From NCBI RefSeq assembly GCF_900109735.1, contig NZ_FOAS01000002.1:124001-188000 (forward strand): a stretch of DNA of 64,000 nt, written 5' to 3'. The position numbers and the translations under genes are program-made. Source of the DNA: Atopomonas hussainii. GTDB lineage: Bacteria; Pseudomonadota; Gammaproteobacteria; Pseudomonadales; Pseudomonadaceae. Below, piece by piece: positions 19,727 through 64,000 of the stretch (positions are counted from its first letter, which is position 1; each line of letters starts with the position of its first letter). Under the pieces are notes generated by a model. The model ran no database searches and was not told the origin of the DNA. It saw only the letters and a list, made by a program, of their open reading frames with translations.

Positions 19727-20731
19727 ATGCTGTCACTGGGCAAGTTTCTCGAACTGTCGCTGACTGGCCGTGAGCCGTGCGAAAAAATCCAACTTAATGC
19801 CGAAAGCACCCGCCTGCACTGGCGCGGTGAAGGTGTGCTGGAAGTCGTCCCGCCGTCAGCGAGTGACTGCGGTCGCGACTTGATTCTCTCTGCTGGTATT
19901 CACGGCAACGAAACCGCTCCCATCGAACTGCTCGACCGCTTGTTGGTGCGCATCGCCAGCAATCAGCTCAAGGTCGGTACGCGGGTGCTGTTTGTGCTCG
20001 GCAATCTTGAAGCCATGCGCAAAGGCGAGCGCTATCTGGCAGAAGACTTAAACCGCTTATTTAGCGGCAAACACGAAATGGCCGAAGGCAGCGAAGCGCT
20101 GCGCGCCGATGAGCTGGAAAAATACTGCATCGCTTTCTATCAAGGCGTTGAAAGCAACGGCCACGCCCGCGAGCGGTTGCACTTTGATTTGCACACGGCG
20201 ATTCGTGGCTCGCGAGTGGAAAAATTCGCCCTGTACCCGTTTGTGGAAGGGCGCGAACTGCCAGAGCGCTCTTTGGCGCGCTTGCAAGCCGGTGCGGTGA
20301 ATACCGTGCTGAAGCAAAATCGCCACGCCAGCACCTTCTCGGCCTTTACCGCCACGCACTTAGACGCCGAATCGTTCACCTTAGAGCTCGGCAAGGCGCG
20401 CCCCTTTGGCCACAACGAAGGAGTGAACCTTGAAGCGCTGGAAGCCATGCTCGCCACGCTTATCAGCGGCGGTGATGTGGACGACAACGCCTACCAGCCA
20501 GAGCACACCCAGCTCTACCAAGTGGCGCGCGAGGTGATTAAGCACAGCGAATCGTTCCGCCTGCACTTGGCCGATGACGTGGAAAACTTCACCGAGCTGG
20601 AAACCGGCTACCTGCTGGCCGAAGACTGCGGCGAGCGGTTTGTGGTCGAAGAAGCCGGCGCGCGCATCATCTTCCCCAACCCGAGGGTGAAGAATGGCCT
20701 GCGTGCGGGCTTGCTGATCGTGCCTGCATAG
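19727..20731 (+). CDS. aruE: Succinylglutamate desuccinylase AruE
   Basis: Last AST enzyme: N-succinylglutamate is hydrolysed to glutamate and succinate. It is a zinc carboxypeptidase-type protein of 334 residues. Zinc ligands are in [19 protein letters not shown] (His, Glu) and [20 protein letters not shown] (His). The family segment [20 protein letters not shown] carries the presumed catalytic Glu. A strong AAGGAGGA precedes the ATG at 19727. It closes the aru operon, with a hairpin terminator 20 bases downstream. It is distantly related to AotO upstream. Confidence 0.95.
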
Positions 20732-50693: not shown

Positions 50694-53528
50694 TCAGACG
50701 GCAGCGTCTTCGCTAATCGGCTCGGCAGGTTGATCCGCAGTGCTGCTGGTCTCGCGGCGCTCGATAAACTTCCAGTCGGCTTCGTCCAGATAAATGCCCT
50801 GCGGCGTGCTGCCGCCTTCCAAGTCGATGGCCACTGCGGCCGAGACCTGCGGTTTCACCGAGGCAAGAATCGGCACAAAGCCTAGCTGCTGGCTGGTTTC
50901 GATCAGCGCCATTTGGTTGCGCTCGTCGATATCGGCGGCTTCGTCGAGGTAGTAGGGCAGGCGAATGCGGCTGGCTTGCTCGCGGTCCATCAGGTGCAGC
51001 AACAAATACATGTTGGTCAGCGCCTTGATGGTCATGGTGGTGCCGTTGGAGGCCGCACCGTCGATATCGGTGTGCAGCACCGGCTGACCGCCGACCTTGG
51101 TGATCTCAAAGGCCAGCTCGAACAAGTCCTTCAGGCCCAACTGGTTGTTGTTGGCTTGCACCAGCTTGGCGAGGAAATCTCGCGCGGCATCGTTGCGCGC
51201 GTCTTCGTCGGGGTTCGGTTTTAAGTCGAACACCGACAGGGTTTCACCTTCTTCGTACTGGCTGGCGCTGTGGATGATCTGGTCGATGTGCTTAAGCGCC
51301 TCGCGGTGCGGGGCCAGCACAATGCGGAAGCTTTCCAGGTTAGACACCTGGCGACGGTTGATCTCGCGGTTAAACAGCCCCAGCTGGTGCTCAAGATTGT
51401 CGTAGTCGTTACGAATATTGCGCAGCGTACGAGCAATGTCGGTAACCGCCGCGCGGCGCGCCTTGGCCAGCGTGGCGGCTTCTTCTTCGCGGTGTGCATA
51501 GGCGTTAACCAGCAGCTTTAAGCGGCGCTCGGGGTCTTCTTCGTTATCGAACTTGGCCACGCCTTTGAGGCGCACTTGGGCGTAAAGCGCGTCGATTTGT
51601 TGGTCGATGCGCATCAGTTGCTGCCACGTGTCTTGATAGTCATTGAGCAGCGGCAGCAGGTTGTCCAGCGAGTCGTCCACCGGGTCGATACAGCGGATGC
51701 CTTCGGGCAAGTCTTTGGGCAACAGCTGACGGCGGCGCAGGGCGTCCTCCAGTGTGCGTTCTTTGGCTTCCAGGTCAGCCAGTTGGCGGCTTAATAGCTG
51801 AATTTTGCCGGACAGCTGCTGCACACGTTCGGTAAAGGCATCGCTGGCGCGGGCGCGTTCTTCGCGAGCGGCGGAGACTTGCTCGAGCTGCGCGGCTTGC
51901 TCGGCGGCTTGTTGCTCAAGGGTTTGCAGGCGGCGGTAGTCTTCCAGTGCTTTTTGCGCTTCCAGCACGGCTTGATAGAGGCGGTCGGCCTCGGCGCGGC
52001 TGGCGGCAATGTCGGCGGCTACCGCTTGCTGGGTTTTCAGTTGTTTCAGCTCACGCTCGAGGCGGTCTTTCTGATCGCGCAGCGCGGTGCGGTCGGCCAG
52101 CGCTTGCAGCTGTGGCGGCTCGATGCTGCTTAGGTCGATGGTCAGCCCCGGCAGGCTCAGCACATTGCCGGTGAAGCGCTCGAGCAACTGCTCAAGGCTG
52201 GTGACCCAGTCGTCGCCGTCCAGTGTGATGCCTTTGTCGGCCAGCGGCAGGCTGAATAGCTCGCTGTTGCACAGGCGCATCAGGCGCTCTACATCGGCTT
52301 GGGTAAATTCTTCGCGCAGGCGGGAATACAGGTTGTTGTCGGCGTGATCGAGCTTGCCGCGCACGTCTTTTAGGCGCTTTTCTAAGTCGCGCACGCGGGC
52401 ATCCAGATCGGCGCTGGAGAACTGCCGCGACTGGGCAATCGCACCGGCCAAGTCATCGTGAACGTCTTTGGCGGCGAGTAGCTGTTGTTCCAGCTGCGCG
52501 GTGTCGGTGACTAAAGCAAAGCGCTGGCGCAGCTCGTCCAGCTCGCTGTGCCATTTTTCCAGTGCGGCGATATCGCGCTCTAAGCGCAGCAGTTCGGCGG
52601 TGGTGCCGCGCTGTTCTTGTTGCAGGCCGTCTTGCTGCTGACGGTGATGTTCGTGCAGACCGAGCAGTTCTTCTTTGCGCGCGTCGGCGTAGTCGTGCCA
52701 GCTGCTGAGTAGCACGTCGAGCAGCGGCGACAGCTTATGCAAGCGGCCGCGCAGCACATCGCGCTGGGTGACGCCGGCAGACAGGGCGTCAATCAACGGG
52801 CCGGCGGCGACCAGCGCGTGGTAGTCCTGCTCCATGCGGCGCACATCGCGGAAGGCTTCTTCGCAGGCGGCGATGTAATCCACGCTGCCCGAGCGCAGGC
52901 TGTGCTCGAAGGCATCCAAGAACAGCTGCTTAAGCTTGGCAGCGGTGATTTCGCGCATGTGCAGCAAGTTGATAAACAGCGCGCGGAAGGTTTTCAGGCT
53001 CTGCTCGCTGGTCGAGCGCAGTGGGATCAGGGTGAGGTCGAGCGGAATCGAGGTGTGCCCGCCAACCAATAAGCGGCGCAGTTCTTCGGGTTTTACCTCG
53101 TGGGCGTGAATGCCTTCGCGCTCTAGGTTGGCGAACAGTTCGCGCTGGCGCAGGCAGGTGCCGTTTTTCTGGTAGTGGGCCAGGTCCAGCTCGCCTTGGT
53201 AGACAAAGAACTGGTGGCCAAAACCGCCACCGGGGCCGCGCCCGGCCACGCCGATCACATGGCGGCCGTGGGCGAGTTCTAGCTCAATGAGGATGTAGCT
53301 GGTGTCGCTGGCGAAATAAAACTTGCGTGACTGTTCGAGGCTGTATTTGCCAAAGCTCATGTCCGACATTCGCGCCAGAATGGGGAATTGCAGCGCGTTA
53401 ATCGACGCCGATTTACCCAAGTTGTTGGCGCCGTAAATCGACAGCGGTTTTTCCAGCGGGAAGATGCCGAGGCTGTAGCCCGCAGTATTCAGCAGGGCAA
53501 AGCGGCGAATGCCGTAGCGGGTGCTCAT
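50694..53528 (-). CDS. mksB: Condensin subunit MksB (SMC-like ATPase)
   Basis: ATPase of the MksBEF condensin, an SMC-like complex that compacts chromosomes in Pseudomonas. It has 944 residues. Walker A is PLSIYGANNLGKSASINALQ. Long heptad coiled coils run from about residue 275 to 400 and 480 to 735, separated by a small hinge-like region. The C-terminal half-head has SNGTTMTIKALTNMYLLLHL (signature-like) and Walker B LPYYLDEAADIDERNQMALI. The head halves and central coil are in the order of MksB rather than of RecN or Rad50. The start overlaps the mksE stop (ATGA). Confidence 0.92.
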   Translation of the reverse strand: MSTRYGIRRFALLNTAGYSLGIFPLEKPLSIYGANNLGKSASINALQFPILARMSDMSFGKYSLEQSRKFYFASDTSYILIELELAHGRHVIGVAGRGPGGGFGHQFFVYQGELDLAHYQKNGTCLRQRELFANLEREGIHAHEVKPEELRRLLVGGHTSIPLDLTLIPLRSTSEQSLKTFRALFINLLHMREITAAKLKQLFLDAFEHSLRSGSVDYIAACEEAFRDVRRMEQDYHALVAAGPLIDALSAGVTQRDVLRGRLHKLSPLLDVLLSSWHDYADARKEELLGLHEHHRQQQDGLQQEQRGTTAELLRLERDIAALEKWHSELDELRQRFALVTDTAQLEQQLLAAKDVHDDLAGAIAQSRQFSSADLDARVRDLEKRLKDVRGKLDHADNNLYSRLREEFTQADVERLMRLCNSELFSLPLADKGITLDGDDWVTSLEQLLERFTGNVLSLPGLTIDLSSIEPPQLQALADRTALRDQKDRLERELKQLKTQQAVAADIAASRAEADRLYQAVLEAQKALEDYRRLQTLEQQAAEQAAQLEQVSAAREERARASDAFTERVQQLSGKIQLLSRQLADLEAKERTLEDALRRRQLLPKDLPEGIRCIDPVDDSLDNLLPLLNDYQDTWQQLMRIDQQIDALYAQVRLKGVAKFDNEEDPERRLKLLVNAYAHREEEAATLAKARRAAVTDIARTLRNIRNDYDNLEHQLGLFNREINRRQVSNLESFRIVLAPHREALKHIDQIIHSASQYEEGETLSVFDLKPNPDEDARNDAARDFLAKLVQANNNQLGLKDLFELAFEITKVGGQPVLHTDIDGAASNGTTMTIKALTNMYLLLHLMDREQASRIRLPYYLDEAADIDERNQMALIETSQQLGFVPILASVKPQVSAAVAIDLEGGSTPQGIYLDEADWKFIERRETSSTADQPAEPISEDAAV

Positions 53529-54292
53529 GCGTTGTGCTCCTCTTCGCTAATGCGCAGCGCGGCTTCAGCGCGTTCTTCGGCAATGGCGCGGGCCAGTTCG
53601 TCGTCTTCGTTGTCTGCTGCCGGCGCTGTTGCTACGGCTGGCGCAATGCGTTCGGGCACTGCAGCTTCGCTTGCCTCATCGACTGCATCCACTTCATCTG
53701 CTTCATCTGCTTCGACGGGCAAGACTGGGGCAGGCAAGGGCAGATCGCTGGCGAGGCTGGCGGCCAAGTCGCGGTCTTGTTGTACGCTCAGGCATACATC
53801 TAAGAAGCGGTGCATGGGCGGTAAAAACTGGTACACGCCGTTGTCTTCGCGGGCAAAGCCCAGCTGCACCAGGCGACGGAGAATTTTGTCGTCCAAGTCT
53901 TCCAAGCTCAGCACTTCGGCCTGCACGAACAGCTCGCGGTATTTGTCGAATAGCGGCGGCAGTTCATCGCGGCCCAAGCTGCCGCCATCCAGTACCGCCA
54001 GCGGGTCGCGGTTTTGGTCGGCTAAGTGCTCGACCACGATAAAGGTGAACAAGGCCAAGCGCTGCGCGGTTTTATTCACCTGCGCGCCGGTCTGCTCGGG
54101 GACAAAATAATAGAAGCCGCGATGGTCGCAGACCAGCTCAAACCCCAAGGTTTTAAACAGGCTGCGGTAGCTGTCTTGCAGGTTGTTCAGCTGGGCGTAT
54201 AACTCGTGGTCGCGCGGGCTGATGTGGTAGCCCTTAAACAACTCGCGGAAGATCGGCGCGAGCAGGCTCAGCTCGGCAATATCAACGGACAT
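53525..54292 (-). CDS. mksE: Condensin subunit MksE
   Basis: Accessory winged-helix subunit of the MksBEF condensin, 255 residues. The N-terminal 175 residues show the MksE/MukE-like winged helices (PIFRELFKGYHISPRDHELY, SLFKTLGFELVCDHRGFYYF, YQFLPPMHRFLDVCLSV). The last 75 residues are an acidic, Ala/Glu-rich low-complexity tail (for example EADEADEVDAVDEASEAAV), probably disordered. It overlaps mksF by 11 bases and mksB by 4, so all three are made from one coupled message. Confidence 0.9.
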   Translation of the reverse strand: MSVDIAELSLLAPIFRELFKGYHISPRDHELYAQLNNLQDSYRSLFKTLGFELVCDHRGFYYFVPEQTGAQVNKTAQRLALFTFIVVEHLADQNRDPLAVLDGGSLGRDELPPLFDKYRELFVQAEVLSLEDLDDKILRRLVQLGFAREDNGVYQFLPPMHRFLDVCLSVQQDRDLAASLASDLPLPAPVLPVEADEADEVDAVDEASEAAVPERIAPAVATAPAADNEDDELARAIAEERAEAALRISEEEHNA

Positions 54293-55532
54293 AAGGTGTC
54301 TCGCTTTCGGTCAACTGGTAGGAGCACAGGCTGATCTGGTGCTCGCGGGTTTGGTAGCTGGCACGCGGCAGGCGCGCACGGTTAAAGCGCGCATCGCGGG
54401 CTAAGCGCGAGAACCAATACAGCAGCTCATCGCTGGCGGCCTCGCGTTCGTGGTCGATCAGCCATTGCATTAAATCGGGCAGCGGCAGCGCGGCTTCGGC
54501 GCGGTTAAGCATTTCTTTTGCCGTGAGCGGTGCGCGAGTAACGGGACGGCTTTGCTTGCGCTCCACACTGGGGAAGCGCGCCGGGCGGCTCTCAAAGCGC
54601 GCCAAGGCATACACATAGCTTTCCACTTGGCTGGAGGTGCCTAAAAAGGTGCTCTGCGGGCGGGTAAAAATCGGTAGCGCCGCTTGCGGCACGGCATCCA
54701 GCCCGCGTTTGCGCATGGCTGCTAAGGCCAGCGCTGCGCCACGGGTGATCGTGTTATGCCGACGGGCTTCTTCACGCAGCGGCAGCAGCAAGTCGCGGGC
54801 TTTGCGCAGGGTCAGCTGGGCGGCGCCTTGCATCTCAAGAATCCGCGCTTGGGCGCGCAGAATCAGATCGTCTTCCACCAAACTGCCGATGCGCTGTTGC
54901 TCGCCATATAAACGCAGCAAGGTGTTTTCCACTTGGCGCATGCCGGTCTCGAAGGGGCCGCTGGCGCTGACCAAGTGAATCATCGGTTCGACGTACTCAT
55001 CCCAGGTCGCCAAGACTTCGGCATAACGCTGGCGCAGGGGGATTTGCCGGTCGTTGGTTTTCGCCCGCTCGGCTACGCCGATCAGCGCTTGTTCGTCGTT
55101 GGCGAGTTTTTTCAGCACATCGCGCACGCGCATGTCTAACAGGCGCAGCTGGCGGGCGAGCTCCAGCGCATCGCGTGCGGCAAAGGCGTCTTCAATGTAA
55201 TGCCCAAGGCGCTCTAGGTGGCGCAGGTAGGCTTCGATCTCAAGACACAGGCCAAGGCGGTGTTCTTTACGCAGGTAGGCGAGAAAGTCGTGAATCTGCG
55301 CGTTGAGCTCGAAGCGATTGGGGCTTTTGGCCACCGGAATCAGAATATCCAGCTTGAGCCATTGGTCGATCAGCGCGGTGACCGCCAGTGGGTCGCTGTC
55401 TTTGAGCTGCTCGGCCAGGCGCGTGCGCAGCTCGACCAAGCTTAAGGTGCCTTGATCAAAGTGGTCGCACAGGGGCTCCAGCAAGGCCCAGTGCTCAGCC
55501 AGTGCGCGCAGCACGCGTTTGGGGTCAATCAT
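54282..55532 (-). CDS. mksF: Condensin kleisin subunit MksF
   Basis: First gene of the mksFEB operon: the kleisin that bridges the two MksB heads and recruits MksE. It has 416 residues, mainly helical. The N-terminal winged helix (RVLRALAEHWALLEPLCDHF) is followed by a long helical middle (YLRHLERLGHYIEDAFAARD, MRQVENTLLRLYGEQQRIGS) and a C-terminal winged helix (DELLYWFSRLARDARFNRAR). No MksG/JetD nuclease gene is present, so this is the chromosomal-condensin type, not the anti-plasmid Wadjet type. The ribosome site at 55532 is weak. Confidence 0.9.
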   Translation of the reverse strand: MIDPKRVLRALAEHWALLEPLCDHFDQGTLSLVELRTRLAEQLKDSDPLAVTALIDQWLKLDILIPVAKSPNRFELNAQIHDFLAYLRKEHRLGLCLEIEAYLRHLERLGHYIEDAFAARDALELARQLRLLDMRVRDVLKKLANDEQALIGVAERAKTNDRQIPLRQRYAEVLATWDEYVEPMIHLVSASGPFETGMRQVENTLLRLYGEQQRIGSLVEDDLILRAQARILEMQGAAQLTLRKARDLLLPLREEARRHNTITRGAALALAAMRKRGLDAVPQAALPIFTRPQSTFLGTSSQVESYVYALARFESRPARFPSVERKQSRPVTRAPLTAKEMLNRAEAALPLPDLMQWLIDHEREAASDELLYWFSRLARDARFNRARLPRASYQTREHQISLCSYQLTESETPYVR

Positions 55533-55828: not shown

Positions 55829-56875
55829 ATGAACAGTTTCAGTGTCCGGGCGCGTGCTTGGGCTTTGCTGTTGGGGATGGGCGCGTGTGCGCCGTTTACC
55901 AGCTATGCCGCCATGCAAGAGCTGGCTGATGAAGACCTGGCCGATGTGCATGGTCAAGCGTTCATCAATCTCACCACGCACTCTGCCGGTGGCTTGGACT
56001 TCACCCGCATTAACCTCGGCCTTGATATCGAAACTCAAATGAATGCGCGCAAGTTGCAGCTGGGCTTGTACGATCGCGCCGGTGAGGCGGGCAATACCGC
56101 CGATTTGGATATCAATGCTTTTGCCTTGGGTACCGTGAATGACGCCACGGGGCAGGTGAATCCGTTTCGCATCAAAGACCCGTATCTAGAAGTGGCGTAT
56201 CGCGGTAGCAAAATTGTCGGTGTGCGCGTGGGCTTTGGTGAGGCCAAAGGCGAGCTGTCCGGCGAGATCAACCGGCTGACGGGTAATGTGCCGGTGTTTA
56301 TTAAAGGCACAGCCAATGCCATTTACGATAAAGCCGATGCCGGTCAGCGCTTCTTGCTGTTTTTGGCGGGGGTATATCGCTCAAGCCAGATTGAGGCGAA
56401 TGCCGAGCTGGTAACCCCCGGCGGACAGGTCGACCCAGTGCGTGCGACGCATTCGGGGATTCCTAATGGCAGTGGTATGGAATGCGTGAGCGGCTGCGCG
56501 GGTGGCTGGACAGATGCCTTGCTGGGGGCGTTTGCCTCCAACAATTGCTCGATTTTGGGTATCGCCACTTGTTTTGGTTTGAATCAATTTCAAACCCTGC
56601 CGGTGGGAGACTTGAGCCGCGCAGGCATGGATGGCGCCGTGCGCGACATGTTTATCTCGATGCAAACCGAGTCGTTGACGTGGAAGGGCAGCAGTGGCCA
56701 GCCGGATGTCAACGCCATTGTCGGCGCTTTCATGAATTTGCCTAAGTATGTGGATGCTAACGGTCAGCTTAAGGCGCCGATTCAGCTGGACTTTGGCCAG
56801 GCCTTGAACGGGATACCGCGTAAAGACACCTGCTTTGGTGCGTCGAATGGCAGCACGGCGCAGGGCGGCTGTTAA
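55829..56875 (+). CDS. Secreted protein of the VxGQ-motif family, copy 1
   Basis: A 348-residue protein of unknown function, first of five in a row. A signal peptide (residues 1-28, core WALLLGMGACAPFTSYA) is followed at once by QELADEDLADVHGQAFINLT, the motif shared by all five genes; it recalls N-termini annotated DUF6160 in other Pseudomonas (from memory, not checked). The next 130 residues are beta-rich and polar (GLDIETQMNARKLQLGLYDR, VGVRVGFGEAKGELSGEINR). Cysteines come in pairs: CX3C, CX7C and a C-terminal CX12C. They suggest disulfides in an exported protein. About two thirds of residues in the first half match the next gene. The ATG has GGGG about 8 bases upstream. Confidence 0.75.
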   Translation: MNSFSVRARAWALLLGMGACAPFTSYAAMQELADEDLADVHGQAFINLTTHSAGGLDFTRINLGLDIETQMNARKLQLGLYDRAGEAGNTADLDINAFALGTVNDATGQVNPFRIKDPYLEVAYRGSKIVGVRVGFGEAKGELSGEINRLTGNVPVFIKGTANAIYDKADAGQRFLLFLAGVYRSSQIEANAELVTPGGQVDPVRATHSGIPNGSGMECVSGCAGGWTDALLGAFASNNCSILGIATCFGLNQFQTLPVGDLSRAGMDGAVRDMFISMQTESLTWKGSSGQPDVNAIVGAFMNLPKYVDANGQLKAPIQLDFGQALNGIPRKDTCFGASNGSTAQGGC

Positions 56876-57034
56876 GTGTTACTGCTCTGGGGAGGGTGGT
56901 AACGCTTTGTCTTTGTGTTTGGTCGCTAGCGTAGGCTGTGGAGGTCTGCGCTAAACGAGAGTTGGCAGCCAAGGGCGGCGCGCTTCAGTAACGTGGCAGG
57001 GTGAGCAAATTTTGACCGATGTGTGTGGTGGCCA

Positions 57035-58066
57035 ATGTTCAAGAAAATCCTGTCCCAATTGAGTTTTAGCCTGCTGCTGGGCGTGAACTTTACTGCGCAA
57101 GCTGAGCTGGTAGCGCTGTCAGATGAAAAACTCTCTGAAGTGACAGGGCAGGCGTTTATGAACATGACCACGGATTCACACAATGGCTTGACCTTCACGC
57201 GCTTGAATCTTGGCGTTGATATTGAGACGCAGATGAACATCAAGAAGCTCGAGCTGGGCAATTACACCCGTGCTGGCGAGGCGGCAGGCACGGCGGATAT
57301 CTCGATCAATAATTTTGCCTTGGGCTCAGTGAATGATGCGACAGGGCAGGTGAATCCATTTTCTATTAAGAACCCCTATCTAGAGATCGCTTATTCGGGC
57401 ACCAAAGTAGTTGGGGTGCGCATGGGGTTTGGTGAGGCTAAAGGGCATCTTTCAGGCGATATCAATAGGATCACCGGTAATGTGCCGGTTGATATCTATG
57501 GCAAGGGCAGTTATCTGGCTTCGCAAATTAGCTGCGCTTGGTATGACCTAGTTTGTCATGGCGCAAAAGGGATCGTTGGTGGTGCTTACGCTAATAGTGA
57601 CTTCGCCGCGCAGGCCCAACTGGTGACTAGTCCCGGAGGGGACCCAGACCCTGTTCGCGCCCAGTTTATCGGTATGGTGGATGGGCAGAAGCTGAGTATT
57701 CCCTCTGGTTCTGGTTTCGATAATTTTTTGCTGGGACTTTTCTCATCTAATAACTGTGCGCTGCTGGGTACCACAACGTGTTTTTCGCTAGCAAATTATG
57801 GTTCTTTTCCAGTCGGGCAGTTTAATGCGGCCACCCAGCAATTCACCGACTCAGCTAAAGGCGTGTTTTTGTCGATGCAAACGCAAAATGTGCAATGGCG
57901 AGATCAGCAAGATGCCACCAAGTTTGTTGAGGCGTTGGCTGGGGCTTTTATGAATTTGCCGCGTAATGCCGATGGCTCGGCGGCCATTCGAACCAGTTTC
58001 CAAGAGGCTTTCGAGGGTATCCCGCGCGTGGATACCTGCTTGGGGCCGCAAACCAAGGGGTGCTGA
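57035..58066 (+). CDS. Secreted protein of the VxGQ-motif family, copy 2 (paralogue of copy 1)
   Basis: A 343-residue paralogue of the preceding gene. Signal peptide residues 1-23 (SFSLLLGVNFTAQA) lead into ELVALSDEKLSEVTGQAFMN. Regions TRLNLGVDIETQMNIKKLEL, ALGSVNDATGQVNPFSIK and VVGVRMGFGEAKGHLSGDIN are near copies of the first protein. Cys pairs are CX6C, CX7C and a final CX7C (DTCLGPQTKGC). An insertion of about 20 residues (residues 160-185) separates it from copy 1. The ATG at 57035 has no good ribosome site; a GTG four codons upstream is an alternative. The middle part uses more AT-rich codons than its neighbours. A 159-base gap precedes it. Confidence 0.73.
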   Translation: MFKKILSQLSFSLLLGVNFTAQAELVALSDEKLSEVTGQAFMNMTTDSHNGLTFTRLNLGVDIETQMNIKKLELGNYTRAGEAAGTADISINNFALGSVNDATGQVNPFSIKNPYLEIAYSGTKVVGVRMGFGEAKGHLSGDINRITGNVPVDIYGKGSYLASQISCAWYDLVCHGAKGIVGGAYANSDFAAQAQLVTSPGGDPDPVRAQFIGMVDGQKLSIPSGSGFDNFLLGLFSSNNCALLGTTTCFSLANYGSFPVGQFNAATQQFTDSAKGVFLSMQTQNVQWRDQQDATKFVEALAGAFMNLPRNADGSAAIRTSFQEAFEGIPRVDTCLGPQTKGC

Positions 58067-58068
58067 GT

Positions 58069-59115
58069 ATGCAGCGACTGTTCTTGGCCAGTTTGTTAGG
58101 TGGCTTAGCGGGGCTGGCTAATGCCGAACTGCAAGCGCTGGATGATGAAAAACTCGCCACGGTGTCCGGCGCCGGTTTTGGCATGGTCATTGAGAATTTT
58201 CTCTACGACGGCACCCAAGCCACCATCACTATTAACGACATCACCAACGGTAGCGGGCAGAACGTACCGATTGCTGTTAAAGAGCTTTATGTCGGTGCCA
58301 CCGGCAGTAATAAAGGCAGCAACCTGCAGCCGGTCAATATTGGCCGTTTGAGCTACCCGTGGACGCTCGATTTGGTGAAGGGTGAGAACCTGAAAACCCT
58401 GCGCGATGACGGTCAGTTGGTGCAAACCGTGCCGACCAACCTGTCGATATTAAGCTTTGCCGCGCCAGACAAGATTTTTGGCGCCGGTGGCCAGCCGTGT
58501 ATTTCCGGTTATGCAGCAGCGGGTAACAACTGCTCGATGCGCAGCACCGAGAAGGTGGATGCCGGTATTCGCTTCGATTTCAGCGTTACCGGTAGCCGCA
58601 CCGATGTCATCAATATGGACTTCACCGAGCTGACCATGGACGGCTCGTACCTGCGCTTATGGGGTGACAATAGCCGCCAGCAGTTGGTCGGTGAGGCACG
58701 CATTAACCTGTATGCCAAGACGTTGGAAATTCTCTCCTGCGCGACAGGGGCGGCAGGTTGTAACACAGCCCAAGAGCTAGCAGCGCGGACGATTTATTTC
58801 ACTAACACTTACGCGCAATTTGCACTGGGCTATGGCAAGTCGCAGCCGCTGCTGTTTGACGTCACCTCCAATGGCCAGTTTGTGCTGGAGCTGCCTAACC
58901 CGGTGGCTGGGGTAACCAATGCCACTACCCGTAATCAGATCGCGGCGGACTTTTACGCCAACGCGCCGCGCACCAATATCCTTATCGATAACCTCAATTT
59001 TGGTGGCACACGCTCATCGCCCACCGCGGTGCCTACCGGCGGCTATAACTTTGGCCGCAATGAGATTTCCGGCATGAGCTTTAACTACCTGAAGGTGTCC
59101 AGCCATGACCTCTAA
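58069..59115 (+). CDS. Secreted protein of the VxGQ-motif family, member 3
   Basis: A 348-residue exported protein. Signal peptide residues 1-19 (LFLASLLGGLAGLANA) precede ELQALDDEKLATVSGAGFGM, the family motif with GAG in place of GQ. The mature part is beta-rich, with repeated short strands such as DFSVTGSRTDVINMDFTELT and LTMDGSYLRLWGD. Two cysteine pairs are seen: CX10C (ISGYAAAGNN between) and CX6C (ATGAAG between). The ATG at 58069 is 2 bases after the copy 2 stop, with GGGG upstream. Its end overlaps the next gene by 11 bases, so the cluster is an operon. Not otherwise recognised. Confidence 0.75.
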   Translation: MQRLFLASLLGGLAGLANAELQALDDEKLATVSGAGFGMVIENFLYDGTQATITINDITNGSGQNVPIAVKELYVGATGSNKGSNLQPVNIGRLSYPWTLDLVKGENLKTLRDDGQLVQTVPTNLSILSFAAPDKIFGAGGQPCISGYAAAGNNCSMRSTEKVDAGIRFDFSVTGSRTDVINMDFTELTMDGSYLRLWGDNSRQQLVGEARINLYAKTLEILSCATGAAGCNTAQELAARTIYFTNTYAQFALGYGKSQPLLFDVTSNGQFVLELPNPVAGVTNATTRNQIAADFYANAPRTNILIDNLNFGGTRSSPTAVPTGGYNFGRNEISGMSFNYLKVSSHDL

Positions 59116-59686
59116 GCTCTGTATTGCTTTTGCTGCGTTGCTCGCTGGGCCGGCTTGGGCCGAGCTGCAAGCCTTGGATGACAGCGACTTAAGCCAAGTC
59201 GATGGCCAAGGTGGGGTGTATCTGTCTGGCGAGTTCAGTATTAACAAGAATGGCGGTGTGCTGTGGTCGACACCGACCAATGCGAACCCGGCAACTTGGT
59301 CGGCCAGTCAGCGTGGTTGCGGTACCACCAACTTAGAAGTTTGTGGTTTACGCCTCGCGGTGCGTACCGAAAACGGTGGTGGTTGGTTTGTGCTGGACAA
59401 CATCAAAGGCATTTTCAGTTTCGAAGGCTTAACCCTGCGTACCCGCCTGATCAACTCCGGCTTCAATGGCGATGGCGCCGGCTTTAATCAGGATGTGCTG
59501 GAGCTGGGCTTGCCCAATGAGATGAAGTTCAAAAACGCCGCCTTCAGTGTGGCCGTGGCGAATCAGGGCGGTTGGCAGAACAACAAGACCTACGCGCCGA
59601 GCTTCCAGCAGACCAATATCTTTTCCGCCAAGATCGACGGCACCGTGCGCATGCAGGGCAATGTGCTGATCTTCCCGAAAAACTAA
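59105..59686 (+). CDS. Secreted protein of the VxGQ-motif family, member 4 (short)
   Basis: The smallest of the five, 193 residues. Signal peptide (LCIAFAALLAGPAWA, cleaved before E20), then ELQALDDSDLSQVDGQGGVY. One cysteine pair, CX7C (GTTNLEV between), lies at residues about 74-82. The rest is polar and predicted beta-rich (ENGGGWFVLDNIKGIFSFEG, FKNAAFSVAVANQGGWQNNK). It overlaps the end of member 3 by 11 bases and ends 11 bases before member 5. Function unknown; its length suggests a minor or accessory component. Confidence 0.73.
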   Translation: MTSKLCIAFAALLAGPAWAELQALDDSDLSQVDGQGGVYLSGEFSINKNGGVLWSTPTNANPATWSASQRGCGTTNLEVCGLRLAVRTENGGGWFVLDNIKGIFSFEGLTLRTRLINSGFNGDGAGFNQDVLELGLPNEMKFKNAAFSVAVANQGGWQNNKTYAPSFQQTNIFSAKIDGTVRMQGNVLIFPKN

Positions 59687-59697
59687 GAGGCTGACCT

Positions 59698-62049
59698 ATG
59701 CGCATCACTGCTCTGACTGCCGCCCTTATGTTGGCCAACACCGCACAGGCCATGCAGGCATTGGATGACGATGCGCTGGCCGATGTTAGCGGGCAAGCGG
59801 GGATCAGCCTAGAAACCGTATCGTCGGGCTGGACGGCGGGTAAAGTCAGTTATAGCCAAGATGGCAAAAGCCTCGACATGAATAATGTCGCGGTGGGCAG
59901 CGATCCGCGTGCTGGTAGCACCAGTAAAACCACTACGACCGTCGATGTGGTGGGTGATCGTGTGGTGGTCGAGAGCCAATCCACAGCGAAAAAAGCCAGT
60001 GTGGCGAGCATCACCATGGCCGGCAGCAGCAATAGCTTTGGCGCCGTGAATGCGTTTTACACCTTGGGTTCGACGCTCAAACTCAAGGGCGGTGGCGCCA
60101 GTGGCGTGGCTGGGATTGATCTGGACGGCAGTCGCCTGAGCCTGACCAATGCCACGGTGTACTACCGCGACAACGGCCACGACCTGATTATTGATGGTGT
60201 CAGCCTAGAGGCTTATCTCAATGCGGCCTATATCGACATCGTCAACGGTGGCTCTGGCAGTGAGGTGCAGCTGAACTTAGGCACTTCGCGCTTTGTGGGG
60301 CAAATCAATGGACTGCGCATGGACTTAGCGCAAGGCGACCCAAGCTCATCCGTCACCCCGAGCACGCCCGATACCCGTGACCCTAACTACAACCGTAGTT
60401 TTGGTCGCCTGAGCATGGACTTGAACCTCGGCGGCAGCATTCGCATCGCCGGCGGCGGAGCCAGCGGCGATGGCTTGCGCATTAAGCCCAACATCACCTT
60501 CAGCAACAGCCTGTTTCAGTATCAGGATGCCGGCATTCTGCGTGCAGAGAATTTCTCCGGCACCATCGCCAGCACCAGTGGCATCACCTTGGACTTGGAC
60601 AGCGATGCCCGCGGCCCCTACGCGCAGCTGGCCTTTGCCGACTTAAATATCAACACCACCTTCGGTGGCTTGATCATGGGTAACCCGACCAATCAGAAGC
60701 TGGGTAGCTTAGGGTTGAACCTGAACTTTATTGATCAGGGCGCGCAGAAAAACTGGCTGAAACTGCGCCCGGGCGGTGCCAGCACCTCGGCCGCGCAAGG
60801 GGTAACGGCGGATGTGTCGTGGAACATGGCCAACAGCTCGGCGGTGGTCACCGATAACGGCAACAGCATGTGGTTCAGCGGCCTGAAAACCAACGGCACC
60901 GGCACCTTTACCTTAGATATGACCAAAGGTTGCGGCACCGGCGGTGTTACCACCGGTTGCTATGCCGGCACCAGTGGTTTTACCGACCCCAGCAAAGGCA
61001 ACTACAACGGTCATTACGACGGCCTGCGCATTGGCTTTAATAATGTGGTGGGCAGCTACAGCTTTGACGGCTTGCGGGTAGGTAGCGCTAATGCGCCACT
61101 GCAAGGCGGTACGGAGCTGTTGGTGTTGGCGGAGATCTTCCCTGCCTACGACTTCACCTTAAACGGTCACTTCACCTTATTGCCCGGCGGTAGCAGCGGC
61201 GACGGCATTCGCTATAACGCCGACCTGTTCATCACCGATGCGCGTGCGGCGATCACTGTGGATGAAACCGGCAAAGGCCTATGGCTCTCCGGTACCAGCT
61301 ACAACATGCACTTTCGCAATGGCTCGGTGGATGTCACCAACAACGGTATCGAGCTGAATAAGGGCGAGTACTGGTCCAATCTGGATGTCAGTGATGTGCG
61401 CTGGGGCAACAAGCTCACCGGCACCAGTCTCGGTCGTTTGGTGCTACGCCGTTATGAGCAAGGCTCCACCTTGGCGATTAGCTCCGGTGGGGCTGGCGCG
61501 CTGTGCGTAGGCGGCACAGGGACTAACTCGGGCACCTGCGCCGCTAGTGGCGGGCGTTGGGAAGATCGCGGCAACGAAGGCATCACCGCTAAGTTGAAAA
61601 ACGTCTGGGTTAAAGGCACTACTTCGACCGCCAATACTGTGGTGACCGACGAGAAGCGCAACCAGATCATCTGGGAAACCAACCGTAGTGGCGGTAATGG
61701 CACCGGCAGTCAGATCGTGGTGGATAACCTGCACACCAGCGACGGCAATGCCTCGGTGGCCAATGGCGGCAACGGCACCGGCGCTACTAACGGCACTAAC
61801 ACCTATGGCTTTAACGTCGACCTGAACCTCGACGTGGCGCCGACCAAGGTGCGCAACAAAACCACGGGTCAATACGTTAGCCCCGATCCGCTGGGCTTTG
61901 CGGTAAACGGTCGCGTGCACTTTAAAGAAATCAATATCGACCGCGTGCAAAACGTGCATCCCACCGGCGGAGCGGTCACCTCCATGTACGGCGTGAAGCT
62001 GCAAAACGCCGATATCAGCGCCAACATGACGGCCACGCCGATCAACTGA
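59698..62049 (+). CDS. Large repeat-containing secreted protein of the VxGQ-motif family, member 5
   Basis: A 783-residue exported protein. Signal peptide residues 1-18 (ITALTAALMLANTAQA) precede MQALDDDALADVSGQAGISL. At least four internal modules begin with a GGxSG-type turn at about residues 131 (KGGGASGVAGIDLDG), 252 (AGGGASGDGLRIKP), 359 (PGGASTSAAQGVTA) and 497 (PGGSSGDGIRYNA). Each is followed by a strand pair and an acidic D-x-G turn. Cys pairs CX8C and CX10C are present. Gly, Asn, Thr and Ser are abundant and there are no long helices, suggesting a beta-solenoid or barrel-like surface protein. GAGG lies 8 bases before the ATG. A perfect terminator follows. Confidence 0.78.
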   Translation: MRITALTAALMLANTAQAMQALDDDALADVSGQAGISLETVSSGWTAGKVSYSQDGKSLDMNNVAVGSDPRAGSTSKTTTTVDVVGDRVVVESQSTAKKASVASITMAGSSNSFGAVNAFYTLGSTLKLKGGGASGVAGIDLDGSRLSLTNATVYYRDNGHDLIIDGVSLEAYLNAAYIDIVNGGSGSEVQLNLGTSRFVGQINGLRMDLAQGDPSSSVTPSTPDTRDPNYNRSFGRLSMDLNLGGSIRIAGGGASGDGLRIKPNITFSNSLFQYQDAGILRAENFSGTIASTSGITLDLDSDARGPYAQLAFADLNINTTFGGLIMGNPTNQKLGSLGLNLNFIDQGAQKNWLKLRPGGASTSAAQGVTADVSWNMANSSAVVTDNGNSMWFSGLKTNGTGTFTLDMTKGCGTGGVTTGCYAGTSGFTDPSKGNYNGHYDGLRIGFNNVVGSYSFDGLRVGSANAPLQGGTELLVLAEIFPAYDFTLNGHFTLLPGGSSGDGIRYNADLFITDARAAITVDETGKGLWLSGTSYNMHFRNGSVDVTNNGIELNKGEYWSNLDVSDVRWGNKLTGTSLGRLVLRRYEQGSTLAISSGGAGALCVGGTGTNSGTCAASGGRWEDRGNEGITAKLKNVWVKGTTSTANTVVTDEKRNQIIWETNRSGGNGTGSQIVVDNLHTSDGNASVANGGNGTGATNGTNTYGFNVDLNLDVAPTKVRNKTTGQYVSPDPLGFAVNGRVHFKEINIDRVQNVHPTGGAVTSMYGVKLQNADISANMTATPIN

Positions 62050-62063
62050 CATCTGCTTGCTGA

Positions 62064-62101
62064 ACAATGCCAGCCATCGTTGATGGCTGGCATTGTCGTT
62101 T
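62064..62101 (+). terminator. Strong terminator of the secreted-protein cluster
   Basis: ACAATGCCAGCCATC (62064-62078) pairs perfectly with GATGGCTGGCATTGT (62082-62096), loop GTT, then CGTTTTT. It sets the end of the five-gene unit. Confidence 0.93.
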
Positions 62102-62212: not shown

Positions 62213-62276
62213 TCGCCCCTTTATTTGCGGGGTGGGCCTGCCTGCCTCGTTTTGCCGCTTTCGACAGGGTGCTGTG

Positions 62277-63374
62277 ATGCTGAAAACACCGTATTACCTC
62301 ATTGATAAGCAGAAGCTGCTGTGCAATCTGGAAATCATCCGCACGGTGCGTGAGCAGTCCGGCGCCAAGGCGCTGCTGGCGCTGAAGTGCTTTGCGACGT
62401 GGTCGGTCTTCGACCTGATGCAGGAGTACATGGACGGCACTACCTCCAGCTCGTTGTTCGAGCTGAAACTGGGCCGCCAGAAGTTCGCCGGCGAAACCCA
62501 TGCTTACAGCGTGGCCTGGGCCGATGACGAAATCGACGAGATGGTCGAGAACTGCGACAAGATCATCTTCAACACCATCGGCCAGCTGCAGCGTTATGCC
62601 GCCGCCACCGAAGGCAAGATTCGTGGCCTGCGGGTAAACCCACAGGTGTCCAGCTCGGAATTCATCATCGCCGACCCAGCACGGCCGTTTAGCCGTTTGG
62701 GCGAGTGGGATGCCAGCAAGATCGAAGCGGTGATCGAACAGATCTCCGGCTTTATGTTCCACAACAACTGCGAGAACAGCGACTTTGCCCTGTTTGACCA
62801 GATGCTCAACACCATCGAAGAACGCTTTGGCCATCTGCTGCATAAAGTCAGCTGGGTGAGCTTGGGCGGCGGCATTCATTTCACCGGCGAAGGCTATCCG
62901 CTGGACAAGTTCTGTGCACGCCTAAAGCAGTTCTCCGAGCAGTACGGTGTGCAGGTGTACTTAGAGCCCGGCGAGGCGGCCATCACCCTAAGCAGCTCGC
63001 TGGAAGTCACTGTGCTCGACACCCTGTTCAACGGCAAAAACCTCGCCGTGGTGGACAGCTCTATCGAAGCGCACATGCTGGATCTGTTGATTTACCGCCA
63101 AGACGCCAAGATGGCGCCGTGTGATGGCGAGCACCGCTACATGGTGTGCGGCAAGTCGTGCTTAGCCGGCGATATCTTCGGTGAGTTTAATTTTGATCGT
63201 CCGCTGGCCATCGGCGATCGGCTGTCGTTTATCGACGCGGCAGGTTACACCATGGTCAAAAAGAACTGGTTTAACGGTGTGAAGATGCCGGCCATCGCGG
63301 TGCGTCAGCTCGACGGCAGCGTCGAAGTGGTGCGTGAATTTACCTTTAACGACTACCTGTCCAGCTTGTCCTAA
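62277..63374 (+). CDS. nspC: Carboxynorspermidine/carboxyspermidine decarboxylase NspC
   Basis: Pyridoxal-phosphate decarboxylase of the alanine-racemase fold that converts carboxy(nor)spermidine to (nor)spermidine, last step of the route used by Vibrio and many other bacteria in place of SpeD/SpeE. It has 365 residues. The cofactor Lys is in GAKALLALKCFATWSVFDLM. SLFELKLGRQKF, VNPQVSSSEFIIADPARPFS, HNNCENSDFALFDQML and VSWVSLGGGIHFTGEGYPLD are family signatures; CGKSCLAGDIFGEFNFD holds the catalytic Cys. The ATG at 62277 follows AGGGTG; a start 15 codons earlier is unlikely. The partner dehydrogenase follows after 21 bases. Confidence 0.93.
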   Translation: MLKTPYYLIDKQKLLCNLEIIRTVREQSGAKALLALKCFATWSVFDLMQEYMDGTTSSSLFELKLGRQKFAGETHAYSVAWADDEIDEMVENCDKIIFNTIGQLQRYAAATEGKIRGLRVNPQVSSSEFIIADPARPFSRLGEWDASKIEAVIEQISGFMFHNNCENSDFALFDQMLNTIEERFGHLLHKVSWVSLGGGIHFTGEGYPLDKFCARLKQFSEQYGVQVYLEPGEAAITLSSSLEVTVLDTLFNGKNLAVVDSSIEAHMLDLLIYRQDAKMAPCDGEHRYMVCGKSCLAGDIFGEFNFDRPLAIGDRLSFIDAAGYTMVKKNWFNGVKMPAIAVRQLDGSVEVVREFTFNDYLSSLS

Positions 63375-63395
63375 GGCTGACAGCAGGGGAGATAA

Positions 63396-64000
63396 ATGAA
63401 GAAGAACGTTCTTATCATTGGTGCAGGAGGTGTCGCCAAGGTGGTGGCCCATAAGTGCGCGCAGCACAACGACGAGTTGGGTCGTATTGCTATCGCGTCG
63501 CGTAACATCTCCAAGTGCCAGGCCATCATCGACAGTATTAACGCCAAAGGCAGCTTAAAGCAGCCGGGCGAGCTTAAAGCGTATGCCGTCAATGCGCTGG
63601 ATATCGAGGCGACCAAAGCCCTGATCCAAGAGACCGAATCACAGATTGTGATCAACGTAGGCTCGGCTTTCCTGAATATGTCCGTCCTGCGTGCCTGTAT
63701 TGATACCGGTGCTGCGTATCTGGACACCGCGATCCACGAAGACCCGAGCAAGATTTGCGAAACCCCGCCGTGGTACGCCAACTACGAGTGGAAACACCTG
63801 GACGAATGTAAAGACAAAGGCATCACCGCCATTTTGGGCGTGGGCTTTGATCCGGGTGTGGTGAATGCCTATGCGGCATTGGCCCAACAGGAACATTTCG
63901 ACAGCATCGAGTCGATCGACATCCTCGATGTGAATGCCGGCTCGCACGGCAAATATTTTGCGACCAACTTCGACCCGGAAATTAACTTCCGCGAATTCAC
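63396..64000 (+). CDS. Carboxynorspermidine dehydrogenase (saccharopine dehydrogenase family), partial
   Basis: NADPH-dependent enzyme that condenses aspartate semialdehyde with a diamine to carboxy(nor)spermidine, the substrate of NspC. The first 201 codons are present; the right edge cuts the gene. The Rossmann fold is KNVLIIGAGGVAKVVAHKCA, and family segments are DTAIHEDPSKICETPPWYAN, ILGVGFDPGVVNAYAALAQQ and VNAGSHGKYFATNFDPEINF. GGGGAGAT lies about 3-10 bases before the ATG. With nspC upstream it forms a complete alternative polyamine route. Vibrio has the two genes in the reverse order (from memory). Confidence 0.92.
   Translation, partial: MKKNVLIIGAGGVAKVVAHKCAQHNDELGRIAIASRNISKCQAIIDSINAKGSLKQPGELKAYAVNALDIEATKALIQETESQIVINVGSAFLNMSVLRACIDTGAAYLDTAIHEDPSKICETPPWYANYEWKHLDECKDKGITAILGVGFDPGVVNAYAALAQQEHFDSIESIDILDVNAGSHGKYFATNFDPEINFREF

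Follow-up and report, generated by a model that had tools for sequence, protein, structure and literature searches.

Putative C39-type leaders on the Sec-exported proteins of a five-gene operon in Atopomonas hussainii, with FilB as a likely partner

The window analysed here is a stretch of 64,000 nucleotides of Atopomonas hussainii DNA (contig NZ_FOAS01000002.1, positions 124,001 to 188,000), in which five consecutive genes, termed w1–w5, encode exported proteins that share an N-terminal motif picked up by the Pfam model DUF6160 (PF19657). On the evidence of its sequence, this motif is most likely where a C39-type 'double-glycine' leader, here carried by Sec-exported proteins, is recognised and cleaved. 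The partner of the motif proteins is likely to be FilB, a stand-alone C39 peptidase encoded on another contig, together with FilC and FilD. Taken as a whole, a route comprising Sec export, leader cleavage by FilB, export through FilC and filament assembly is the best explanation of the data, with a probability of roughly 0.75. The features of the operon are as follows, with the genes taken from the open reading frame (ORF) list.

w1, 55829-56875, + strand: exported protein of 348 aa with a DUF6160-type N-terminus (ORF list; PF19657 22.3 bits, under cut-off)
w2, 57023-58066, + strand: exported protein of 347 aa (ORF list; PF19657 28.2 bits, over cut-off)
w3, 58060-59115, + strand: exported protein of 351 aa (ORF list; PF19657 23.0 bits, under cut-off)
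w4, 59105-59686, + strand: exported protein of 193 aa (PF19657 31.1 bits, over cut-off; NCBIfam FilA 17.5 bits, cut-off 220)
w5, 59698-62049, + strand: exported protein of 783 aa, mostly beta (DUF6160 49.4 bits; NCBIfam FilA 27.3 bits, cut-off 220)
Putative leader motif of w1, 55922-55957, + strand: LADEDLADVHGQ, residues 32-43
Putative leader motif of w2, 57116-57151, + strand: LSDEKLSEVTGQ, residues 32-43
Putative leader motif of w3, 58138-58173, + strand: LDDEKLATVSGA, residues 27-38
Putative leader motif of w4, 59174-59209, + strand: LDDSDLSQVDGQ, residues 24-35
Putative leader motif of w5, 59761-59796, + strand: LDDDALADVSGQ, residues 22-33
Terminator-like hairpin at the operon end, 62064-62096, + strand: 15 pairs, 8 GC (consensus scan only)
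Terminator-like hairpin between w1 and w2, 56874-56907, + strand: 15 pairs, 5 GC (consensus scan only)

All five proteins begin with a hydrophobic signal peptide followed by a single 12-residue motif, which starts 3–4 residues past a plausible signal peptidase site (judged by eye). When the 503 stop-to-stop ORFs of at least 60 aa in the window were scanned with a matrix of motif positions −12 to −2, the training set of which includes w1–w5 themselves, the five best scores were those of w1–w5 (23.0–27.1); the sixth, 13.7, falls at about residue 392, deep within an unrelated protein. The independent model PF19657 detects all five N-termini (E 5.8e-13 to 1.6e-4), three above and two below its gathering score of 27 bits. 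Window-wide and multi-locus controls rule out the motif being a product of chance or a signal-peptide artefact.

The intergenic distances from w1 to w5 are +147, −7, −11 and +11 bases, so that w2–w5 are tightly spaced or overlapping. The terminator consensus scan returned 17 sites in the window compared with 12.0 +/- 4.7 in shuffles. An earlier sequence-only reading of this region had described consecutive genes for exported proteins with a common N-terminal motif, the last four close or overlapping and ending at a terminator, and had named DUF6160, all of which agrees with the present results. It had also noted that the proteins differ in length (193–783 aa) apart from their shared start; one detail to be changed is that w1 and w2 are tandem duplicates. 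Searches of the bodies of w1–w5 against Pfam, NCBIfam and PHROGs yielded nothing useful beyond DUF6160 and the weak FilA matches, the few remaining matches being far below cut-off or unnamed, and the only literature mention of DUF6160 found was a listing.

The composition of the motif was derived from 156 unique N-termini, gathered using a profile of the seven DUF6160 N-termini of A. hussainii (E<=0.01). Position −15 is Leu or Met in 97% of these, −12 is Leu, Met, Ile or Val in 100%, −10 is Asp or Glu in 95%, −7 is Leu or Met in 100%, −4 is Val or Ile in 82% and −2 is Gly in 97%, while −1 is Gln (79%), Ala (11%), Glu (4%) or Arg (3%); these percentages are conditional on likeness to the motif, since the collecting profile represents the same motif. 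The distance from the signal peptidase site to −12 is 3–4 residues in 129 of the 156. The double-glycine register of C39 leaders, with hydrophobic residues at −12, −7 and −4 and glycine at −2, is present in all five window proteins, the residue at −1 being Gln in four and Ala in w3. In a leader described in PMC6363468, Glu-8, Glu-5 and Ala-3 are replaceable and the V-4T variant is still cut. Structure models are compatible with a removable leader. In the w5 model, residues 1–33 all have a predicted local distance difference test (pLDDT) value of <50 apart from residue 28; a short helix lies within the motif and the first strand starts at residue 36. The w2 model (pLDDT 84.8, mostly beta) has an N-terminal stretch of 45 low-confidence residues, a short helix at the motif (32–43) and its first strand from residue 47.

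The A. hussainii genome contains seven DUF6160 matches, namely w1–w5 and one protein each on contigs C15 (position 8281) and C19 (position 121027). The protein on C15 is a FilA homologue (NCBIfam FilA 55 bits, cut-off 220) and opens a fil locus (L008, 8278-12198) of order FilA-FilB-FilC-FilD; a fifth gene encodes a MalM domain and two MalT-like regulators precede the locus. FilB is a stand-alone C39 peptidase (PF03412 65.2 bits, cut-off 22) that matches the NCBIfam FilB model with 290 bits (cut-off 475) and the FapD model with 115 bits (cut-off 330). FilC scores 335 bits with FilC (cut-off 630) and 63 bits with FapF (cut-off 700) and also matches the barrel family PF13557, and FilD is a member of the FadL/Toluene_X family (NCBIfam FilD 540 bits, cut-off 970). 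Two C39 hits occur in the genome, FilB and a 736-aa frame that, from its length, is presumably a peptidase-containing ATP-binding cassette transporter. The hydrophobic N-terminus of FilB and its homology to FapD suggest a location on the periplasmic side, and its catalytic residues Gln, Cys, His and Asp are kept in 36 of 36 unique FilB sequences.

FilC lies beside FilB in 18 of 18 FilB loci (L123, L125–L141), FilD is found in 13 of these FilB–FilC loci, and, of 30 FilB loci each spanning 3 kb, 15 contain a motif ORF. Four tandem motif genes immediately precede filB-filC-filD at L128, and two, one of them weak, do so at L126. Among the variants of these loci, extra genes between filD and filE encode 1541 aa at L016 (1165-5790, genome G029), where an internal segment weakly matches the portion of DUF6160 that follows the motif, and 956 aa at L137 (position 4514, genome G436). 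The alignment of a FilB match on contig C13 of genome G615 (19728-20507; also in G646) contains an internal TAA. Genomes G174 and G286 (loci L122 and L124) each have 13 DUF6160 matches, many of them in small proteins and some in tandem, together with a FilB of 212–218 bits; their substrate set looks expanded.

The distribution of DUF6160 closely follows that of FilB in four genome samples, which overlap so that their counts are not additive, and the Fisher values calculated for them take no account of kinship; the bit-score limit separating FilB from other C39 peptidases (>=161) was set after the gap had been seen. Among 37 relatives, DUF6160 is present in eight and FilB (at least 276 bits) in seven, all within those eight. 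The class sample of 369 genomes has DUF6160 in six and FilB (at least 211 bits) in the same six, the next C39 score being 137 bits; DUF6160 is absent from 50 other genomes whose C39 scores are lower. In the order sample DUF6160 occurs in 33 of 244 genomes, including 30 of the 30 with FilB of at least 262 bits and genome G406 with a FilB of 174 bits, and in just one (G025) of 19 genomes that have only lower C39 matches. In the phylum sample it occurs in 11 of 299, and these include all nine with FilB of at least 282 bits.

The operon itself is conserved. A scan of the named genomes identified 41 named loci with w5 orthologues: one from Atopomonas (L142, the nearest relative, with 89% identity), 39 from Pseudomonas, other Pseudomonadaceae or bins assigned only to Gammaproteobacteria, and one from an Oceanospirillaceae bin. 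All four gene types occur in the order w1/2-w3-w4-w5 in 39 of the 41, the exceptions being L172, on a short contig, and L178, which lacks w1/2 and in which w5 lies in two frames. That split w5 (L178, 1836-4173) is in an assembled bin. Two copies of the first gene are found only in the window and at L142. The motif is kept in every orthologue with an N-terminus present, ending in Gly-Gln in w1/2 (40 of 40), Gly-Ala in w3 (39 of 40), Gly-Gln in w4 (38 of 40) and either Gly-Gln (21) or Gly-Arg (19) in the 40 w5 orthologues counted, which leave out two w5 fragments without an N-terminus. FilB of at least 265 bits is present in 38 of the 40 searched genomes that bear operon loci, a count that leaves out the genome of L142. 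A box, ACCCATAGTC, precedes w1/2 in 34 of the 40 upstream regions compared, which come from 39 named loci and the window; the window itself has only ACCCATAG. No regulatory box common to w1/2 and filA was found in the upstream regions compared. The sequence-only reading had supposed that any partner lies elsewhere in the genome and that the shared tag marks the proteins for a common step such as processing; both suppositions are supported, the likely partner being FilB with FilC and FilD. The shared gene order and FilB content show the cluster to be co-inherited.

A connection to filaments is suggested by PDB entry 9xfv, named 'bacteria pilus (like)' and composed of 25 chains, of which chain A matches A. 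hussainii FilA (E 2.3e-6), the DUF6160 protein on C19 (E 5.6e-5) and a profile of 15 FilA-type proteins (E 6.2e-13). With this profile, residue 1 of the 9xfv chain aligns to the residue after Gly-Gln and its last residue to the C-terminus of the FilA family; the deposited chain therefore lacks the equivalents of the signal peptide and the leader, although the deposited sequence may comprise modelled residues only. The entry is known here by its PDB name and sequence match, and no publication on it was found among the matches listed. The FilA and w5 profiles align across 90 columns, and a Foldseek comparison of the w5 model with 9xfv gave a probability of 0.97, a TM-score of 0.37 by target and a root-mean-square deviation (rmsd) of 3.7. 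In fold searches, which covered the w5 and w2 models, w5 resembles numerous barrels and beta sheets, with Z values of at most 9.1 and large rmsd, and w2 resembles nothing above Z 5.2; no fold was assigned to either. The single match of the w5 sequence to the PDB (1bwy_A, E 0.15) was judged to be meaningless.

A similar register is found beside other stand-alone C39 peptidases. Around 30 non-FilB C39 loci, 28 of 90 exported-like genes have a DUF6160 matrix score >=4 (in 18 of the 30 loci), compared with 0 of 47 farther away and 0 of 204 in named loci (0 of 251 in total); with overlapping ORFs allowed, 25 of the 30 loci have such a hit, against 2 of 262 controls. This test used the matrix without position −1, counted genes lying up to 3 kb away on the same strand, applied a crude home-made signal-peptide rule and dropped 101 members of w1–w5 by stop coordinate; the 30 loci were hand-picked, represent mostly the highest-scoring rather than all non-FilB C39 hits of the relatives, class and order samples, and include two from one genome. 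The last two residues in the 20 hits with scores >=6 are AG (six), GG (four), GR (three), GI (two) and GK, GD, GT, GN and GA (one each). Comparison of eight C39-locus proteins with NCBIfam identified five FapE (four over cut-off at 305–347 bits, one at 80 bits) and one FapB-like protein, with no informative match for two. All five FapE show the register soon after the signal peptide (LSDTELAQLRGR, VSDEELAQLRGR, LKDQELAQLRGK, LSDHELAQLRGR and LSDEELGGLRGR).

L183, 8533-9306: FapE homologue beside a C39 peptidase, register ending LRG-R/K
L184, 6072-6863: FapE homologue beside a C39 peptidase, register ending LRG-R/K
L185, 6613-7485: FapE homologue beside a C39 peptidase, register ending LRG-R/K
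L186, 7128-7928: FapE homologue beside a C39 peptidase, register ending LRG-R/K
L188, 7102-7974: FapE homologue beside a C39 peptidase, register ending LRG-R/K

FapD is reported to act in the periplasm, its active-site Cys being needed for the secretion of FapC (Rouse et al., PMC5557850; also PMC6173800). According to PMC5557850, the target of FapD is unclear and the Fap proteins have no canonical C39 sites; FapE, for which no peptides were obtained from the first ~70 residues, was on that ground considered the likeliest substrate. The LRG-R/K end of the FapE register is a candidate FapD cleavage site. Elsewhere, exported-like ORFs by stand-alone C39 peptidases at L190, L191, L192, L196, L197 and L210 carry a register that ends in a true Gly-Gly, some of them overlapping the C39 gene, and several small exported-like proteins at L207, L211 and L212 end the register in Ala-Gly (e.g. 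VTAG, ITAG) and look like families of small substrates. Recurrence of the register in proteins encoded beside further stand-alone C39 peptidases, with FapE among these proteins, points to a wider rule. Such a rule, whose odds appear slightly less than even, would be a general Gram-negative two-leader export, in which a Sec signal peptide is directly followed by a C39-type leader; FilB, FapD and other stand-alone C39 peptidases dedicated to this task would cut the leader and so license secretion through FapF/FilC-type barrels. DUF6160 would then mark one branch, the cut in FapE would fall at LSDxELAQLRG(R/K), true Gly-Gly or Ala-Gly ends would belong to other branches, and the leader could act as a lock against periplasmic assembly of filament subunits or initiators.

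For w1–w5, the proposed route would begin with export by Sec and cleavage by signal peptidase, leaving a new N-terminus that retains a leader of ~15–16 residues. Leader residues −12, −7 and −4 would sit in the hydrophobic groove of FilB, which would cut after Gly-Gln, Gly-Ala or Gly-Arg. The mature beta-rich proteins may then cross the outer membrane via the FapF-type barrel FilC, possibly together with FilD, and may become part of a pilus-like filament, or decorate one, in which FilA or a relative could be the main subunit. The sequence-based support for this route is the motif register, the co-occurrence, the catalytic residues, the gene linkage and the homology of FilA to 9xfv, with a chain start at the predicted cut; we infer the cut, its enzyme, the location of FilB, the export route and the filament role of w1–w5. 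Recognition and cutting of the leader by FilB appear probable, export through FilC is somewhat favoured and a place for w1–w5 on the filament has about an even chance.

Several observations weigh against this interpretation. w1–w5 are not part of the fil locus and form a separate operon on another contig, and none of the FilA–FilD homologues reaches the curated NCBI cut-offs. The motif has mostly Gln at −1 rather than the Gly, Ala or Ser that marks a C39 leader, and the Gln or Arg found there differ from the Gly, Ala and Ser known for C39 enzymes. The co-occurrence has exceptions: G445 has a FilB-like protein (161 bits) without a DUF6160 Pfam hit, yet with a motif ORF near filB; G529 (65% complete) has a partial FilB-like match (88 bits) without DUF6160; DUF6160 occurs without FilB in G025 (75% complete) and in G758, a fragmented bin of another class (340 contigs) in which the motif is visible; and two of the 40 operon genomes, bins of 2.7 and 3.3 Mb, lack FilB. 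DUF6160 without FilB is also recorded in G444, where no motif was seen on inspection. The box ACCCATAGTC is absent upstream of filA in the five regions obtained of six sought. The fold likeness of w5 to 9xfv is of low significance (E 0.47, rank 35), and the w5 and w2 profiles had no match to PDB sequences at E<=1. In PMC5557850, FapA–FapD, including the main subunit FapC and FapB, appeared unprocessed and FapE alone seems to be cut; a leader on every substrate is therefore not the rule in Fap. The predicted FapE leader is also shorter than the missing part of ~70 residues.

Of the alternatives, the one that survives best is that FilB processes the leaders and w1–w5 are not filament parts at all, being instead periplasmic or outer-membrane proteins, for example hydrophobic-compound uptake or adhesion factors acting with FilD. 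This is unlikely, at perhaps one chance in a few, and it overlaps the first steps of the FilB–FilC filament route, so that the confidences in the two are not exclusive. FilD being a FadL/Toluene_X homologue present in most FilB–FilC loci, the PF13557 match of FilC and the lack of a strong pilin fold match for the w5 and w2 models would suit such a role. Set against it are the relationship of A. hussainii FilA to a filament subunit, the homology of FilC to the exporter FapF and reports from Acinetobacter that FilC and FilF are increased in biofilm and FilF in pellicles (PMC8792954, PMC3203104). It is rather improbable that the motif is a docking tag kept on the mature protein, either bound uncut by FilB or recognised by a barrel, for example FilC. 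C39 cleavage is indeed unusual with Gln or Arg at −1 and non-cutting C39-like domains exist (PMC6363468), but the invariant catalytic residues of FilB, the requirement of the related FapD for its active-site Cys in secretion (PMC5557850) and the start of the deposited 9xfv chain after the motif all argue for cutting. Very improbable is a motif that is simply the N-terminus handed down within an old family of pilin-like proteins, with FilB co-travelling but not acting on it, because, even though DUF6160 extends to residues past the motif and the FilA and w5 profiles align over a long stretch, conservation is strongest at the positions of C39 contact and, close to them, at −15, −10 and −1, and the same register recurs in proteins exported beside other C39 peptidases, FapE included.

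The operon is flanked in the window by a three-gene SMC-like operon (50694-55532, − strand), presumably of the MksB/MksE/MksF type. Its sole PADLOC matches, LmuB at 27 bits and JetB at 18 bits, are weak, and at least one of its genes adjoins the w1–w5 operon in 36 of the 41 named loci. Downstream (62232-63998, + strand) lie genes that we take to resemble those for carboxynorspermidine decarboxylase and dehydrogenase, the first of which is also 3' of the operon in 21 of the 41 loci.

The chief interest of these results lies in the two-leader design and the precise prediction of a FapE site. A domain of unknown function becomes a testable protease site, scattered operons of exported proteins are tied to one machinery and the question in the Fap field of where FapD cuts gains a concrete candidate. 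With fil genes expressed in biofilms of Acinetobacter and a filament formed by one FilA relative, the route proposed here would, if true, define the biogenesis of little-studied surface fibres. Neither a reading of this motif as a C39-type leader on Sec-exported proteins nor the separate substrate operon was found in the literature searched, which was thin on subscription journals and preprints, and 'FilB' with the phrase 'C39 family peptidase' had no match there.

The suggestion of the sequence-only reading that this is an undescribed system is not upheld, as the machinery is already represented in NCBI models of a 'putative pilus system' (NF050077 FilA, NF050078 FilB, NF050079 FilC and NF050080 FilD) and is homologous to the Fap exporter. 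The Fil system has homologues in the same order in A. hussainii, and w4 and w5 weakly match FilA, but all scores are under the NCBI cut-offs, w1–w5 are encoded apart from it and the fifth gene of the A. hussainii fil locus has a MalM domain. That Fil proteins form filaments is suggested by one finding, the homology of FilA to 9xfv. This 'Pilus-like-alpha' filament, from a karst cave sample, is a sequence relative of FilA and the C19 DUF6160 protein, but has a 173 aa subunit from another organism and no sequence match to the w5 and w2 families. Compared with the C39 double-glycine leaders of bacteriocins and of ribosomally synthesized and post-translationally modified peptides (Nif11, nitrile-hydratase type, LahT/PCAT), the register at −12, −7, −4 and −2 is alike (PMC6363468), whereas the w1–w5 leader would come after a Sec signal peptide, the peptidase is a stand-alone enzyme, and the substrates are large beta proteins with mostly Gln at −1. 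The Fap system (FapA–FapF) likewise places a C39 peptidase beside a barrel exporter, with homology between FilB and FapD and between FilC and FapF, and the FapE motif has the same register as w1–w5. However, the FapD and FapF cut-offs are missed, w1–w5 have no match to the NCBIfam FapB, FapC and FapE models at E<=1, and the main Fap subunits are reported to be unprocessed (PMC5557850). The machinery is thus named in NCBI models and homologous to Fap with the cut-offs missed; therefore, the operon is a variant of the Fil/Fap kind and not a member of Fap, and most likely provides a secretion system of the Fil/Fap type with additional substrates.

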